DNA of 64,000 bases, from NCBI GenBank assembly GCA_029379225.1, contig JAQYWR010000001.1:124001-188000 (forward strand), in the 5' to 3' direction. Position numbers and translations under genes: made by a program. Source of the DNA: Nostoc sp. S4 (lineage in GTDB: Bacteria > Cyanobacteriota > Cyanobacteriia > Cyanobacteriales > Nostocaceae). Under the pieces are notes generated by a model that was not told where the DNA came from, searched no databases, and saw only the letters and a program-made list of their open reading frames with translations. Below, piece after piece: positions 35,140-64,000 of the stretch. Each line of letters begins with the position of its first letter. Within the stretch, counting starts at the first letter, position 1.

Positions 35140-35743
35140 AGCTTGACTTTCTCCTTGATAAATATATCAAGACAGATGCACGGGATTATTTTTGACTAAA
35201 TCTATCCTAAGCGGTTTAAAGCTAGAAACCCAATTAACTAGCGAACAGTCTGTTGAGTAGAAGCGCAAAATGCTTGAGATTTTTGGAGTTGATGACAGAT
35301 GACTGTTGACTGATGACTCTTAACAGTGGGATATTTGGCGTTGCCGAATCGAGGGATAAAATTTATATTTTGAAATCCAAAGCTCTTTATCCTCTCTGCG
35401 TCTTTGCGCCTCTGCGTGAAAAAATCATCCCATAAATCAGCAACGCCGGATATTTTTTATTTCTCAATCTGTTAGAACACTTGATACATTATTCTTTTGA
35501 GCTAAAGACCTGTTTCGGCAAAAAGTTAAGTGTAAATGGGTATAACAAGTAAAAATGCTAGATGATATTCAGGCGATCGCTGTTAATCACAGTTGTGAGA
35601 CTGATTTTTTTGCAGGGCTGAAACCTTTGTTTTTATGTAGGTTTTTGAAAGTTTGCTATTTACTGACTGTAGTATTATTATCGATAAAGGGGAGATGTCT
35701 AGAATACGCTACGCATGGCAGCTGATACTATTTGCTAAAAATA
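35140..35743. other. Intergenic region carrying a MITE copy
   Basis: A 604-bp spacer. It contains heptamer repeats at 35290-35317 (TGATGAC, AGATGAC, TGTTGAC, TGATGAC) and a complete miniature element at 35337-35447. I see no gene in the remainder (35460-35743). Confidence 0.6.
35337..35447. mobile_element. Miniature inverted-repeat element, copy A, with 8-bp target duplication
   Basis: The 111-bp element starts GGCGTTGCCGAATCGAGGGA and ends with the near-reverse complement (TCATCCCATAAATCAGCAAC then GCC). The 8 bases GGATATTT directly precede it (35329-35336) and directly follow it (35448-35455), a perfect target-site duplication. It has no coding capacity, so it must be moved by a transposase encoded elsewhere. 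A second copy lies at 60126-60286. Confidence 0.88.
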
Positions 35744-59613: not shown

Positions 59614-59883
59614 AATTATGAGAATATCTCCGATTAGGCAGTGATTTTTTATCTGTAAAAAGCCTAACCAAACTTATATAAATTCTGTAGTGTTCAAGAT
59701 AATTTATTTTGAAAAAATATTGTAAATTATTTTGCTTATTTTTCTATAAAAACTCAGTATTATACTTAGTTATTTAGATGAAGTTAGGTTATTTTATATT
59801 TGAGATAATTTAATATCTGGTTAGTCAGGTAGAAATAAGTAAAGTGATGACCCAAAAAATATATATTTTTAATTAAGCATTAA

Positions 59884-60039
59884 TTATTTAATTGTTGTAC
59901 CCTTGATTTCAACTAGATGAGTATGTTTTATTAAATAGAGTTTTTTAGGTTTTCTACCTAGGAGCCATTGCCACCGAAAACGGAAACGAGTTGAGCGAAC
60001 AATAACCTGATGCCAAACAATTACCAGAAATAATCGCAT
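59884..60039 (-). CDS. Possible small basic protein, 51 residues
   Basis: A frame from ATG 60039 to stop 59884: MRLFLVIVWHQVIVRSTRFR, then FRWQWLLGRKPKKLYLIKHT, HLVEIKGTTIK. The N-terminus is hydrophobic and the rest strongly basic. The ATG follows the stop codon of the PepSY remnant reading frame by 1 nt (TAAAATG) with CGGA just upstream, which suggests it once lay in an operon behind that gene. No family recognised; a real but unannotated gene or a decaying one are both possible. Confidence 0.4.
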   Translation of the reverse strand: MRLFLVIVWHQVIVRSTRFRFRWQWLLGRKPKKLYLIKHTHLVEIKGTTIK

Positions 60040-60125
60040 TTTATTTCCGGCGTCTTGCAGTTTCGTTTATCCTAGTTTTAGCTTGATAATGACACCGCCA
60101 CATCACAAAGCCAGTAAGAAATAAA

Positions 60126-60286
60126 GGCGTTGCCGATCAATGGGATGATTTTTGTCTCACGCAGAGACGCAGAGAGAAGTCGGAGCGGCGGCTTCCGCCG
60201 ATCTGAACTTCGGTGGGCGCAGAGAGTAAGAGTTTGAGAAATTGAATTTTGAGTTTTCATTCCTTTATTCAGCAACGCCCAACGCC
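60126..60286. mobile_element. Miniature inverted-repeat element, copy B, inside the PepSY remnant
   Basis: 161 bp, starting GGCGTTGCCGATCAATGGGA and ending with CAACGCC given twice. The 8 bases GAAATAAA stand on both sides (60118-60125 and 60287-60294), a perfect target duplication. Removing the element and one duplicate restores alignment with the intact paralogue at 60525-60575. In inverted orientation it matches copy A along most of its length except for an internal extra piece (60177-60226). Confidence 0.92.
60177..60217. repeat. 41-bp palindromic repeat nested in MITE copy B
   Basis: The piece (AAGTCGGAGCGGCGGCTTCC to CGGTGGG) contains the palindrome CGGCGGCTTCCGCCG. It is flanked by CGCAGAGAG on the left (60168-60176) and again on the right (60218-60226), a 9-bp duplication. 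Copy A lacks both the piece and one CGCAGAGAG. It has the look of a small mobile dispersed repeat. Confidence 0.8.
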
Positions 60287-60457
60287 GAAATAAAATTAAC
60301 GGTGCAAATCCGACGAAGACATAGAAAATCTGAGATAGAAGTCCCCAGGAAGTACCATAGTGCAAATGGTTAAAAGAATTAAGGACACAACTGCCTTTGA
60401 TTTGTGTTGCGTGAGTCCTGAACCACTGAGTAAATAAAAATGCCAATTTGTAAAGAT

Positions 60458-61594
60458 TCAATTTGAATTTGTATAAATCTTATCTTTTGTAGTCAGTTTT
60501 ATACGGTAACGATACCCCCACATCACAAAGCCAGTAATAAATAAAATCAACGGTGCAAGCCCAACAAATACGTAGAAGATACGGGTGGGTAAGCCAGCAA
60601 ATGTGCCATAGTGCAAAGGTACAAAAGAGTTGAGGACGCGATCGCCCAACCGCATCTTTAAAGCATTATCAACTCTTAAAACCTTACCACTGTACTGGTC
60701 AAGATAAACATTACTATTACCATACTCTTCATTTTCCTGTGGCAGCTTCATGCGGATTTGTAGAGTTTCTTCTGGTTTACTAGGAAAGTAAATGCTCTTG
60801 GTAATAGCACCTGGCAAGGCAGCATCGGCAATTTTCAGTTGTTGGGTTAGATTTAAAGTTGATTTCCCAGGAATTGGTTTGGATACTGGCTCAGATGGTT
60901 TTGGAGTGAATGTAACAGCGTAAATAATCGGCTCAGTCAAATCGTAGAAGTTCCAGCAAAAGCCAGTAAAGCCAGTAAAGAATAAAAAAACCACAGCGAT
61001 AATGCCAGCCACTTTATGAATATCAAAGTTGGCGCGTTTAGGATGAGCATCAAGCTTGATTTTGAAGCCTGCAATTAATCTACGCCAACCAGGCCAAAGA
61101 ATTAAACCTGTAATGGTGAGGACACACATGAAAAAGGCAGCAATGCCAACAATTATAGTTCCAGTTTCACCAGCCATCAGGCTGTAGTGCAGACTAAGGA
61201 TCGTACCTATTAAGGTGTTATCTGATATCCGCTCACCAATAATTTTGCCTGTATAAGGATTGAGAAAAACTTCTGTCCTTTGATCCTTAGTTGTTGACAA
61301 CTGCCCTATGTAGGGAGAAGCAGGAGTATCTGGTAAATAAATCCGAAAAAGATGGAGATCGCTTCGTGCAGCATACTTCGTCTTAATTGTATTCATCACT
61401 GACTCTGGGGATACTAACTGCACCTGTTGAGGAGTAATCTGTCCATACTGTTGAGCGATCGCAAAGCGGTCAAAATCTTGCTCGAACACTAACAAGCTAC
61501 CTGTCAGACCAACGATAACCAGCAGCAGTCCTACTGCTAAACCAACATAGCGGTGCAGAGTAAATGCTAAATCGCGTATTTTTTTAGAGTTCAT
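60458..61594 (-). CDS. PepSY-associated TM helix protein (PiuB-like, siderophore-linked)
   Basis: 378 residues from ATG 61594, chosen because GGAG lies 8 nt upstream; a TTG at 61645 would add 17 residues without a ribosome site. Four membrane helices: about 17-38 (HRYVGLAVGLLLVIVGLTGS), 140-165, 190-215 and 345-365, with PepSY segments between. This family is encoded beside TonB siderophore receptors and is thought to reduce or handle ferric siderophores at the inner membrane. It follows the receptor gene here, 54 bp after its stop. A broken copy of its 3' end lies immediately downstream. Confidence 0.9.
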   Translation of the reverse strand: MNSKKIRDLAFTLHRYVGLAVGLLLVIVGLTGSLLVFEQDFDRFAIAQQYGQITPQQVQLVSPESVMNTIKTKYAARSDLHLFRIYLPDTPASPYIGQLSTTKDQRTEVFLNPYTGKIIGERISDNTLIGTILSLHYSLMAGETGTIIVGIAAFFMCVLTITGLILWPGWRRLIAGFKIKLDAHPKRANFDIHKVAGIIAVVFLFFTGFTGFCWNFYDLTEPIIYAVTFTPKPSEPVSKPIPGKSTLNLTQQLKIADAALPGAITKSIYFPSKPEETLQIRMKLPQENEEYGNSNVYLDQYSGKVLRVDNALKMRLGDRVLNSFVPLHYGTFAGLPTRIFYVFVGLAPLILFITGFVMWGYRYRIKLTTKDKIYTNSN

Positions 61595-61648
61595 GGTAAA
61601 AGCTCCGTGATACCATACAGCACTTAATGAGTTAAGAAATTGCAAGAA

Positions 61649-64000
61649 TCAAAACTCAACTGAAACTGTTCCCAGTACAGTCAAAGGCTCACCAGGACGA
61701 AGATAGTAGCCTTGAGAATCGTAATACCGAGTACTGGTAAAATTCTTTAAGTTCAATCCAACCCTCCAGCGATCGCGTTTGTAGAAAATTGAGGCATCAG
61801 CACGCACATAAGAGGGAATTTTGAATGTGTTGGGAAGTTCAGCTTCGCGATCGCCAGTATAAAATACTCCCCCACCAAAACCTAATCCTTTCCAATTCCC
61901 GTCTTGAATTTCATAAGTTGTCCACAAACTACCGCCAATACCAGGAGCATTTACCAGCGAGTTGCCCACTGGCAGACTATCATCTTTACTGACAAAAGCA
62001 TCGTTATGGAATAAGGACGCAATCACATTCCAGCCTGGTAAAATCTGCCCAGAAACGTCAAATTCTAAACCGCGACTTTTCACTTCTCCAGCTGCAATCG
62101 AATAATCAGGATTATTTAGATCCGTTGTAGCGACATTTTCCTTGGTAATATCATAGGCGGCAAAAGTAGCAGATAACCTGTCTTTAATTAGTTCCCCTTT
62201 GACTCCCACTTCATACTGAGTGCCGCGTTCTGGTGGGAGTTGAGTTCCATCTACTGTCCGCGAGTCACTGGGATTAAACGAGCGGCTGTAGCTGGCGTAA
62301 ATTGAAATCGGTTCAATTGGTTGATAAACAATGCCAACGCGAGGTGAAAAAGCTTCATTATACAAGTGGTCAACGCTCTCATCACCAATCAGATTGTTGC
62401 CCGTAGGATCTAGTGGTCGAACGGTATTCTTCCGATTAATAAAGTCATATCTGCCACCCGCCAATAGCTTCAGATTTGGCAGCAACGTTATTTGATCTTG
62501 CAGATAAAAGGCGATCGTGTCGCGGCCGTAGCGCTCGCGCTCTGAGGCTTCATCAAACTCTGGTGGTGGAGAAGCACCATACACCGGATTAAACAAATCA
62601 ATACTGGGAGTCAGGGAAGTGGTACTGCGGAGATAATCGAAGCCCTGGAGGTCTTTATTCCACTCCAACCCCAGCAAAACTTGATGTTGCACAGATCCCG
62701 TATTGAAGTTACCAATTAGATCCGTTTGCAGGGAGTAGTTGCGGTAAAGGTTTCTATCTACTGCATACCGTCGTAACACAGTACGACCATCTGCATCAAG
62801 AGAGTCCGGTCGAAACGCTAAGTCATCACCATCAGTCAGCTTAACGGAAAAGGCACTGCGGAGCCGCAGGTTTTTGTTAAAACTGTGATTAAGAGTTAAA
62901 TTAATGAAATGCGATTGAGCCGAGTAATAATCTCCTGGCTCTCCCAAGAAGCGATTAATCGGCACGTTGAAAACGTTAGGATCGGGTAATAAACCGTCGT
63001 AGAAAGTGCGATCGGCATTGAGATATTCATATTGAAATGTTAACGTCGTTGCCTTCCCAAGTTTGAACGTGAGTGCAGGGGCGATGCTAAGGACTTTTTC
63101 ATTCAAAAAGTCAACGAAGCTACCGGAGTTTTCATAGGCAACATTCAAACGATACAGAATGCTTTTGTCTGAGTTAAGCGGTCCAGAAAAATCGAGGGAA
63201 GGACGATAGGTGCTAAAGCTTCCATCTGTAAACTCAGCAGAGTAATAGGGATAATCGAGTGGTTTTTTGGTAACATAATTCACCACCCCTCCCGGCTCAA
63301 ACTGCCCATATAGCACGGATGCTGGACCCTTAAGCACTTCAATCCGCTCAATATTTGTTGGATTTACAAAGTTACCAATGGCATAGAAACCATCTCTCAA
63401 AGTGGCGTAGGTGGTAAAACCGCGAATGTTGTAAGTATCTGACAAATTGGCAAAGTCTCCCTGAATAGTCACACCACTTACATTCCTTACAGCATCGCTA
63501 ATCCGCGTAATTTGTTGATCCTTAATGACTTGTTGAGGAATAACTTGAATTGACTGGGGAATGTCGCGTTGAGGAGTATCAGTTTTAGTTGCAGTTGTGC
63601 TATCTGGTACACTATATCCGTCTTGTTCGCCTGTGACTACCAACTCAATCGGTTGATCACCTTGTGTTGATGGTTTTGGCTGTGTTTGACTTTCTGGCTG
63701 TTCAGGAGTTGGTTGGGTTTGCGATTGTTGTGCTATGGATGCAGCAGTCGCCACACTAAAAATTAAACCCTCATCCGCACTGTCAAATAACTCGACAGTT
63801 GGAACACCTGTTTCTCCGATCGCACTTACCCGGATAGTATTGGCATCAAAGTTAGTAACTGTGATTTCACTAACACCCGCAATTGGCTTTTGGGAGCGGA
63901 ATGTAAATGCTTCGCCCGATGGTAGGCGCAATTGAGCATTGGGAATATCAGCAATGAAGTTATTACCAGCACTGCGATTTGTGATTTGTAACTGTTCGCC
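61649..64000 (-). CDS. TonB-dependent siderophore receptor with AMIN domain (partial at 5' end)
   Basis: The frame is open through the right edge, so the start is outside; at least 784 residues are visible. The first visible residues (NAQLRLPSGEAFTFRSQKPI, TVTNFDANTIRVSAIG) are an AMIN domain, common at the N-terminus of cyanobacterial receptors. A Pro/Gln/Thr-rich linker is followed by the TonB plug (DIPQSIQVIPQQVIKDQQ, NIRGFTTYATLRDG, ERIEVLKGPASVLYGQFEPG) and a 22-strand barrel ending in Phe (VSVEF). It belongs to the FhuA/FoxA-like siderophore group; the ferric ligand is unknown. Operon with the PepSY gene. Confidence 0.93.
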   Translation of the reverse strand, partial: GEQLQITNRSAGNNFIADIPNAQLRLPSGEAFTFRSQKPIAGVSEITVTNFDANTIRVSAIGETGVPTVELFDSADEGLIFSVATAASIAQQSQTQPTPEQPESQTQPKPSTQGDQPIELVVTGEQDGYSVPDSTTATKTDTPQRDIPQSIQVIPQQVIKDQQITRISDAVRNVSGVTIQGDFANLSDTYNIRGFTTYATLRDGFYAIGNFVNPTNIERIEVLKGPASVLYGQFEPGGVVNYVTKKPLDYPYYSAEFTDGSFSTYRPSLDFSGPLNSDKSILYRLNVAYENSGSFVDFLNEKVLSIAPALTFKLGKATTLTFQYEYLNADRTFYDGLLPDPNVFNVPINRFLGEPGDYYSAQSHFINLTLNHSFNKNLRLRSAFSVKLTDGDDLAFRPDSLDADGRTVLRRYAVDRNLYRNYSLQTDLIGNFNTGSVQHQVLLGLEWNKDLQGFDYLRSTTSLTPSIDLFNPVYGASPPPEFDEASERERYGRDTIAFYLQDQITLLPNLKLLAGGRYDFINRKNTVRPLDPTGNNLIGDESVDHLYNEAFSPRVGIVYQPIEPISIYASYSRSFNPSDSRTVDGTQLPPERGTQYEVGVKGELIKDRLSATFAAYDITKENVATTDLNNPDYSIAAGEVKSRGLEFDVSGQILPGWNVIASLFHNDAFVSKDDSLPVGNSLVNAPGIGGSLWTTYEIQDGNWKGLGFGGGVFYTGDREAELPNTFKIPSYVRADASIFYKRDRWRVGLNLKNFTSTRYYDSQGYYLRPGEPLTVLGTVSVEF

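Follow-up and report, generated by a model that had tools for sequence, protein, structure and literature searches.

Examination of a stretch of 64,000 nucleotides in a 7.66-Mb draft genome of Nostoc sp. S4 (G000:C60:124001-188000, hereafter the window) revealed what are very probably two nested kinds of mobile DNA: a MITE that inserts with an 8-bp target duplication, and a 42-bp hairpin repeat that entered the MITE earlier and inserts without one. Both lie in the remnant of a PepSY-type gene, in the following setting.

60085 to 60385, minus strand: 3'-end remnant of a PepSY-type gene, split by the MITE (query positions 45-85 and 248-345 match C60:191223-191263 and C60:191257-191354, each at 88%)
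60458 to 61645, minus strand: neighbouring PepSY_TM gene, complete, 395 aa (PF03929, E=9.9e-69; PF03413, E=6.1e-10), with an uninterrupted homologue of the target site inside
61649 to 63931, minus strand: TonB-dependent receptor gene (PF00593, E=1.8e-66), adjoining the PepSY_TM gene and given for context

The initial annotation had taken the remnant for a duplicate of the adjacent PepSY gene's 3' end. Alignment contradicts this, with a match of 73% over 99 bp to that gene against 88% over 98 bp to a third paralogue located about 7 kb away, outside the window (C60:191257-191354); the best copies in relatives, among the matches listed, reach 84-87%. Because it is closer to the third paralogue than to the neighbour, the fragment is, judging from these alignments, the remnant of a different paralogue and no copy of the neighbour's end. 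Such a remnant might result from a deletion between tandem PepSY cassettes. To its left, positions 59967-60044 have matches of 82-88% in at least 15 of 53 genomes and are possibly a regulatory or coding remnant; an Rfam search of positions 59700-60700 gave no match up to E=1.

The element that splits the remnant, its target duplications and a second copy in the window were delimited as follows.

60126 to 60286, no strand assigned: MITE with IS1-like ends, 161 bp including an extra 7-bp tail (terminal repeats and duplication)
60118 to 60125, no strand assigned: left 8-bp target duplication GAAATAAA, present as one copy in uninterrupted PepSY homologues
60287 to 60294, no strand assigned: right 8-bp target duplication GAAATAAA, likewise present as one copy in those homologues
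60126 to 60148, plus strand: left terminal inverted repeat, 6/23 mismatches to the nearer end of an IS1 element
60257 to 60279, minus strand: right terminal inverted repeat, 4/23 mismatches to the nearer end of that element
60280 to 60286, no strand assigned: extra CAACGCC, a tandem repeat of the element's last 7 bases, which precedes the right duplication and is absent from the other copies listed
35337 to 35447, minus strand: MITE copy A, without the palindrome and with three array units, target duplication GGATATTT at 35329-35336 and 35448-35455

The element is short, carries terminal inverted repeats and encodes no transposase, as is usual for a MITE. Its 23-bp ends are imperfect inverted repeats (78% complementary), and lengths range from 91 to 177 bp over the 24 end pairs listed with a target duplication. 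That a 161-bp inverted-repeat element entered the PepSY remnant with perfect 8-bp duplications, as had been proposed, is confirmed by GAAATAAA on both sides and by other copies, at which the same kind of repeat was sought and found. Twenty-nine terminal-repeat pairs were taken from fetched stretches of the genome with no filter for duplications, some overlapping or chance pairs being included; a perfect 8-bp duplication flanks 16 of them and one more has a single mismatch, against 0/29 at one mismatch or fewer for the next 8 bases outward. The target duplication is of constant length (8 bp) across several copies and is more than chance. The window element counts as a miss among the 29, not among the 16, because the extra CAACGCC stands before its right duplication; beyond this tail the duplication is perfect.

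The target is present once in all eight uninterrupted PepSY homologues located, namely the third paralogue (C60:191238), the neighbour (60531), which had been designated as an empty site for the MITE, and L066, L067, L068, L069, L070 and L074. The latter six are those matched when ten stretches from relatives were searched with a sequence expression for the target site; the expression was unmatched in the other four (L071, L072, L073 and L075). Elsewhere, one MITE insertion (target duplication AAAAACCC, with a single mismatch in two cases) is common to four genomes, at L059, L007, L047 and L050, and three of these gained a third palindrome within it.

IS1 elements have a two-ORF layout. A search of the genome for the IS1 transposase family gave 10 places, among which an element on contig C38 measures 753 bp, has the target duplication CAAAGTAT on both sides, ends in GACATTGCTGAATGAAGGGATGA and GGCGTTGCATAATAGAGGGATGA and contains two ORFs, of 127 and 113 aa, that overlap. 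PF03400 is matched at E=8.4e-20 in the genome search and at 1.4e-18 by the 113-aa ORF; the 127-aa ORF gave no IS1 family match and a zinc-ribbon match alone, below the cut-off. Compared with whichever C38 end is nearer, the ends from nine MITEs have 3-8 mismatches in 23 and 5000 random 23-mers of the window at least 9; the left C38 end begins GACATTG, not GGCGTTG. Because of this similarity of ends and the 8-bp length of the duplication, the MITE would owe its movement to a transposase of the IS1 family encoded at another genomic locus, through ordinary transposition with 8-bp staggered cuts, and the C38 element is a plausible source of the enzyme. At L105, L126 and L127, three further loci of IS1 type whose ends could be recognised, no matching 8-bp duplication stood at the ends examined, and no autonomous partner came up when end pairs spaced 0.5-3.5 kb apart were sought around perfect-end sites. 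With the IS1 family as a whole, characterised by the PF03400 transposase, two overlapping ORFs and, at C38, the 8-bp duplication, the MITE shares the type of ends and the duplication length but lacks the transposase gene. The Nezha MITE is said to be linked to ISNpu3-like elements. It is likewise a MITE from the same cyanobacterial group, Anabaena/Nostoc (Zhou et al. 2008), and is likened here through mentions of it.

Within the window MITE, a short array of heptamers is interrupted by the hairpin repeat.

60160 to 60166, plus strand: array unit 1, CGCAGAG (from sequence and unit offsets)
60168 to 60174, plus strand: array unit 2, CGCAGAG (from sequence and unit offsets)
60218 to 60224, plus strand: array unit 3, CGCAGAG, shifted by exactly 42 bp relative to L044
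60175 to 60216, plus strand: inserted 42-bp hairpin repeat, AG + 34-nt core + CGGTGG (window against L044, with 1 bp of placement freedom)
60177 to 60210, plus strand: 34-nt conserved hairpin core (repeat family comparison)

A GC-rich palindromic stretch at 60177-60217 stands between two perfect 9-mers, CGCAGAGAG, at 60168-60176 and 60218-60226, and had been described as a 41-bp palindrome flanked by a 9-bp duplication. The 9-mer occurs four times in the window, counting both strands (60168, 60218, 47162 and, on the minus strand inside copy A, 35392). Palindrome-free MITE copies contain two or three CGCAGAG-like units, and four of them, L044, L013, L048 and L009 (copy A), were compared with the window element. 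The best fit is L044 (genome G001, three units). Around the junction 1 of 56 bases is mismatched, and the window element exceeds L044 by an insert of 42 bp, with no more than 1 bp duplicated; the unit offsets of L044 are 34, 42 and 50, those of the window element 34, 42 and 92. Two-unit L048 differs by 50 bp with 7 mismatches in 56, and L013 by 42 bp in a poor fit (12 mismatches in 56), about as poor as that of L002 with L013 (11 in 56). Copy A has three units at offsets 31, 39 and 47, the middle one reading CGCAAAG, and itself contains CGCAGAGAG; it gave no alignment with the window in the ungapped junction test.

In a second MITE subfamily the array units are individually marked (CGCAGAGG, CGCAGAGT and CGCAGAGAG). 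The filled member L037 (G012) differs by exactly 42 bp from L016 and from L020, with 5 mismatches in 56 each, and retains the distinguishing T of array unit 2 once. Because the L044 and L037 pairs give 42 bp and copy A has three units, the 9-bp repeat is to be read as a unit of a pre-existing array and no target duplication. The flanking 9-mers of the initial annotation are thus real; as array units around a 42-bp insert, they do not mark a duplicated target. Nor does copy A serve as the empty-site control assigned to it for a 41-bp unit with a 9-bp duplication, since it has three units, as does the filled element.

The palindrome had been supposed to enter last. At C20:144907 and C4:110, copies of this MITE carry this palindrome at the same internal spot, and the target duplications of these composites, AAATTTTT on C20 and AAATTTTA on C4, both differ from that of the window. 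Three sites hold the composite, each with a different 8-bp duplication, and the 42-bp hairpin repeat was therefore almost certainly present in the MITE's CGCAGAG array by the time the window copy landed in the PepSY remnant; the reverse order would need three like insertions. Among the matches listed, the CGCAGAG-palindrome-CGCAGAG core occurs in relatives at G024:C30 (99%, query 279-347) and G018:C123 (97%, query 281-346), and no MITE end pair with a target duplication was found at either locus. The initial annotation would have yielded to a composite at unrelated loci of relatives without empty sites, or to 8-bp and 9-bp repeats absent from other copies; the core does stand elsewhere in relatives, but empty sites exist, and so do 8-bp repeats at other copies. 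The exact 64-base composite had no match in a contig search possibly run without the window's own genome, and eight plasmid records matched in part, none reaching 80% query coverage.

Outside MITEs, the length of the insert was read from filled and empty sites. The flanks of 36 copies, joined, served to query 12 genomes, and 40 candidate empty sites for 13 filled loci were selected from the matches listed. An exact ungapped junction test was run on 29 pairs, made up of 20 of these 40 sites and nine MITE pairs; 26 aligned, and window/L009, L037/L096 and L187/L239 did not. The insert is 42 bp in 9/26 aligned pairs (six MITE pairs and three of L184) and 48 bp in another nine (five of L208, three of L177, one of L189). 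Neither length is seen in the remaining eight, which give 50 bp for window/L048, 55 bp for L189/L229 and L186/L233, 41 and 43 bp for L188, an ambiguous 55, 62 or 69 bp for L205/L224 and twice 66 bp for L212, where a further palindrome forms a tail to the insert. Of the eight non-MITE loci aligned, three (L208, L184 and L177) show 42 or 48 bp in every pair, L189 shows both 48 and 55 bp, and L186, L188, L205 and L212 show other or unclear lengths. As for the other 20 candidate sites, L223 and L250 are occupied; among the 18 others, which have multiple gaps, net differences range from 19 to 101 bp, so that they speak neither for nor against an exact length.

The cleanest of these loci is L208, filled in G025 and empty in G000, G038, G012, G051 and G048, with 48 bp at all five empty sites. 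Against the empty site L215 there are 0 mismatches in 56 and at most 2 bp (AG) shared, and the site is not in an array. The inserts of L208, L184 and L177 (48, 42 and 48 bp) share 0-2 bp except in one pair's worst placement, the three L177 pairs fitting less well (11-14 mismatches in 56). L184, L177 and L189 sit within GACAAA/TGACCAA-like arrays, not CGCAGAG arrays. Filled and empty orthologous sites at L208 (five empty), L184 (three) and L177 (three) attest to recent mobility of the hairpin repeat. The 50-bp difference (42+8) and the two of 55 bp (48+7) can be read as one array unit extra, arising either from a change in array length or from a 7-8-bp duplication; that L189 gives 55 bp with L229 but 48 bp with L254 favours the former. 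At L208 (G025:C1:291000-291750) the 48-bp copy lies in frame in an ORF, where it adds 16 residues, VLKSSERRKLPLRLFA, relative to the translated empty site L215 (G000:C71:18780-19133); four further genomes are without the insert at the DNA level.

The repeat family is widespread. At one mismatch or fewer the core pattern is present in 37/53 genomes of the genus (reversed control 0), and 39 copies at two mismatches or fewer were counted in the window's own genome (control 0); a search with a 42-base pattern gave 15 stretches, 12 from Nostoc, 2 from Chlorogloeopsis and 1 from Komarekiella. The 98 distinct core occurrences read from fetched stretches have ends of three types: (i) ...GAG-core-CGGNGG, the type of the window copy, (ii) GCGCA-core-TGTAAGAG, mostly within TGACAAA-like heptamer arrays, and (iii) GCGRA-core-TYYAAGAC. 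The ends of the unit differ by 2-3 nt from site to site.

The hairpin is single and imperfect, with a conserved bulge. Pairing was compared with 1000 shuffles in 68 distinct cores at the pairs that are free on both sides in the search pattern (6-28, 12-22 and 13-21), and these are paired in 64, 60 and 60 cores against shuffle maxima of 49, 51 and 45. The same three pairs include 34 G-T/T-G against 4 A-C/C-A combinations, the 15 pairs together 46 against 18; at the half-fixed pairs 10-24 and 11-23, A-C/C-A (5 and 4) is commoner than G-T/T-G (1 and 3). Given the 34 to 4 excess at the free pairs, the hairpin preserved seems to be that of one strand. Folded as RNA in the preserved orientation, four units have energies between -18.6 and -23.2 kcal/mol, with z from -3.1 to -4.7; the window unit has -21.7 kcal/mol against -17.9 for its complement and, as DNA, -13.5 against -9.8.

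Other palindromes occupy the same kind of element. A second one, a 46-bp unit GAGCCACTGCG...GTGGCGTC in the same MITE array, makes a difference of 46 bp in 6/6 pairs (four filled and two empty copies), with 0-1 mismatch in 44 and a 1-bp ambiguity. A third, beginning GGGCTTACGCCCC, is found on the 5' side of the array, in a MITE whose site is orthologous, with the same flanks, in G000, G003, G020 and G037; its length differences of 72, 73 and 56 bp are not clean, and the pairs L007/L044 and L104/L016 gave no alignment. At L223 (G025:C42:7183-7619) a palindrome of the GAGCCACTGCG type, about 45 bp long, interrupts a hairpin core, and small repeats thus nest in one another; at L153, L173, L176 and perhaps L207 the core sits in the middle of a palindrome GCCARYGYGTTG...GGGTTCCCCCCGTTGT, another order of nesting.

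At its cleanest sites, the hairpin repeat inserts as an exact piece of 42 or 48 bp sharing 0-2 bp with the target; the site often falls between neighbouring units of a short tandem array and in at least one case within a coding frame. The repeat seems not to travel by the IS1-type route, because L208 lacks the duplication expected from staggered cuts. Our leading idea, held tentatively, is spread by a single-strand route, in which a folded copy, either RNA or ssDNA, would be inserted without staggered cuts; it is suggested by the hairpin of one strand being kept by compensating changes that include G-U/G-T pairs.

The repeat could also be carried into the arrays of MITEs by gene conversion, or by an unequal exchange, with other CGCAGAG arrays, and not by insertion of its own. 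The array-repeat-array core found in relatives, at 97-99% with the array units included among the matches listed, offers the homology on both sides that such an exchange needs. The target at L208, however, is not an array and has gained an exact 48 bp with 0 mismatches in 56, and L184, L177 and L189 lie in arrays of other heptamers, which makes conversion doubtful as the general route; it may add to the spread within CGCAGAG arrays without explaining L208.

IS200-type insertion leaves no target duplication. A REP/REPIN-like repeat moved by a Y1 (HUH, RAYT/IS200-type) transposase would accord with the single imperfect hairpin, its conserved bulge, the strand-specific pairing at free positions and the want of a clear target duplication, and Y1 genes are present in 8/8 genomes searched. 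A PF01797 search of these eight genomes gave 19 Y1 matches, but the core is within five mismatches in the fetched flanks of none, G004 and G028 have Y1 genes with 0 core copies at one mismatch or fewer, and the conserved core shows by eye no GTAG/CGTC. This route is unlikely, and a Y1 transposase as the agent is unsupported, with no core near any of the 19 loci.

Very improbable is the earlier model, in which the 9-bp repeat (CGCAGAGAG) would be a target duplication made when a 41-bp palindromic unit transposed. The two perfect 9-mers and the 50 bp (41+9) separating the window from two-unit L048 speak for it, as do the two non-MITE array sites that differ by 55 bp (48+7). Yet L044 fits with 42 bp and 1 mismatch in 56 where L048 has 7, L037 gives 42 bp against both L016 and L020 and keeps the T of unit 2 once, copy A has three units, and L208, outside arrays, shares at most 2 bp; movement of the small palindrome with a 9-bp duplication is thereby contradicted at L044, L037 and L208, whose pairs show exact inserts of 42 or 48 bp. 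That the empty sites are precise excisions and not pre-insertion states is scarcely credible, being formally possible where a single empty site is known, with nothing else in its favour, and opposed by L208, filled in one genome and empty in five others aligned.

These results lead us to the cautious proposal that AAGTC-N-GAGC...GAACTT hairpins of 42 and 48 bp, together with at least one unrelated 46-bp palindrome, may be micro-elements which, lacking Y1 transposases of their own, insert exactly and with no target duplication by a copying route undescribed for such small DNA, and which may extend proteins in frame. The comparison corrects a tempting inference of target duplication for a tiny repeat, and the marked-unit MITE copies and orthologous empty sites constitute a usable data set which, at clean sites, fixes the insert length of a micro-repeat to the base. 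Because they arrive as exact pieces of 42, 46 or 48 bp without duplication, these repeats argue against IS1-type staggered-cut transposition and for single-strand or template-based copying, a testable idea.

The small dispersed repeats (SDR) of Nostoc that Elhai et al. are said to have described in 2008 are reportedly tiny hairpins with compensating changes, with units of 21-27 nt, that sit in heptamer arrays and minitransposons and also nest in one another. Our hairpin repeat resembles them in being a small dispersed hairpin with compensating changes and recent mobility, and a MITE with a hairpin nested in its heptamer array fits what is reported of them; the unit length does not, with a 34-nt core and 42 or 48 bp inserted here. 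SDR5 inserts precisely within HIP1, according to the parts of the source consulted (PMC4390886), in agreement with hairpin insertion without duplication. In the sections consulted of seven papers (PMC3733652, PMC10969869, PMC3116915, PMC4390886, PMC6006769, PMC2884548 and PMC2408588), a set that leaves out the 2008 SDR paper as the likeliest source, no description of the core or of its exact 42/48-bp junctions was found. REP/REPIN sequences with RAYT are short hairpin repeats that spread, as ours do, in the excerpts seen (PMC3116915, PMC6006769), and REP-type repeats occur in cyanobacteria (PMC6006769, PMC3733652, likewise in excerpt); they differ in that our hairpin core has no GTAG-type foot and flanks no Y1 gene (0/19). 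Finally, the palindromic elements of Rickettsia, in the portion of the source seen, are about 150 bp long (PMC10969869) against 48 bp here, and share with the L208 copy a position in frame in a coding gene, where ours adds 16 residues.
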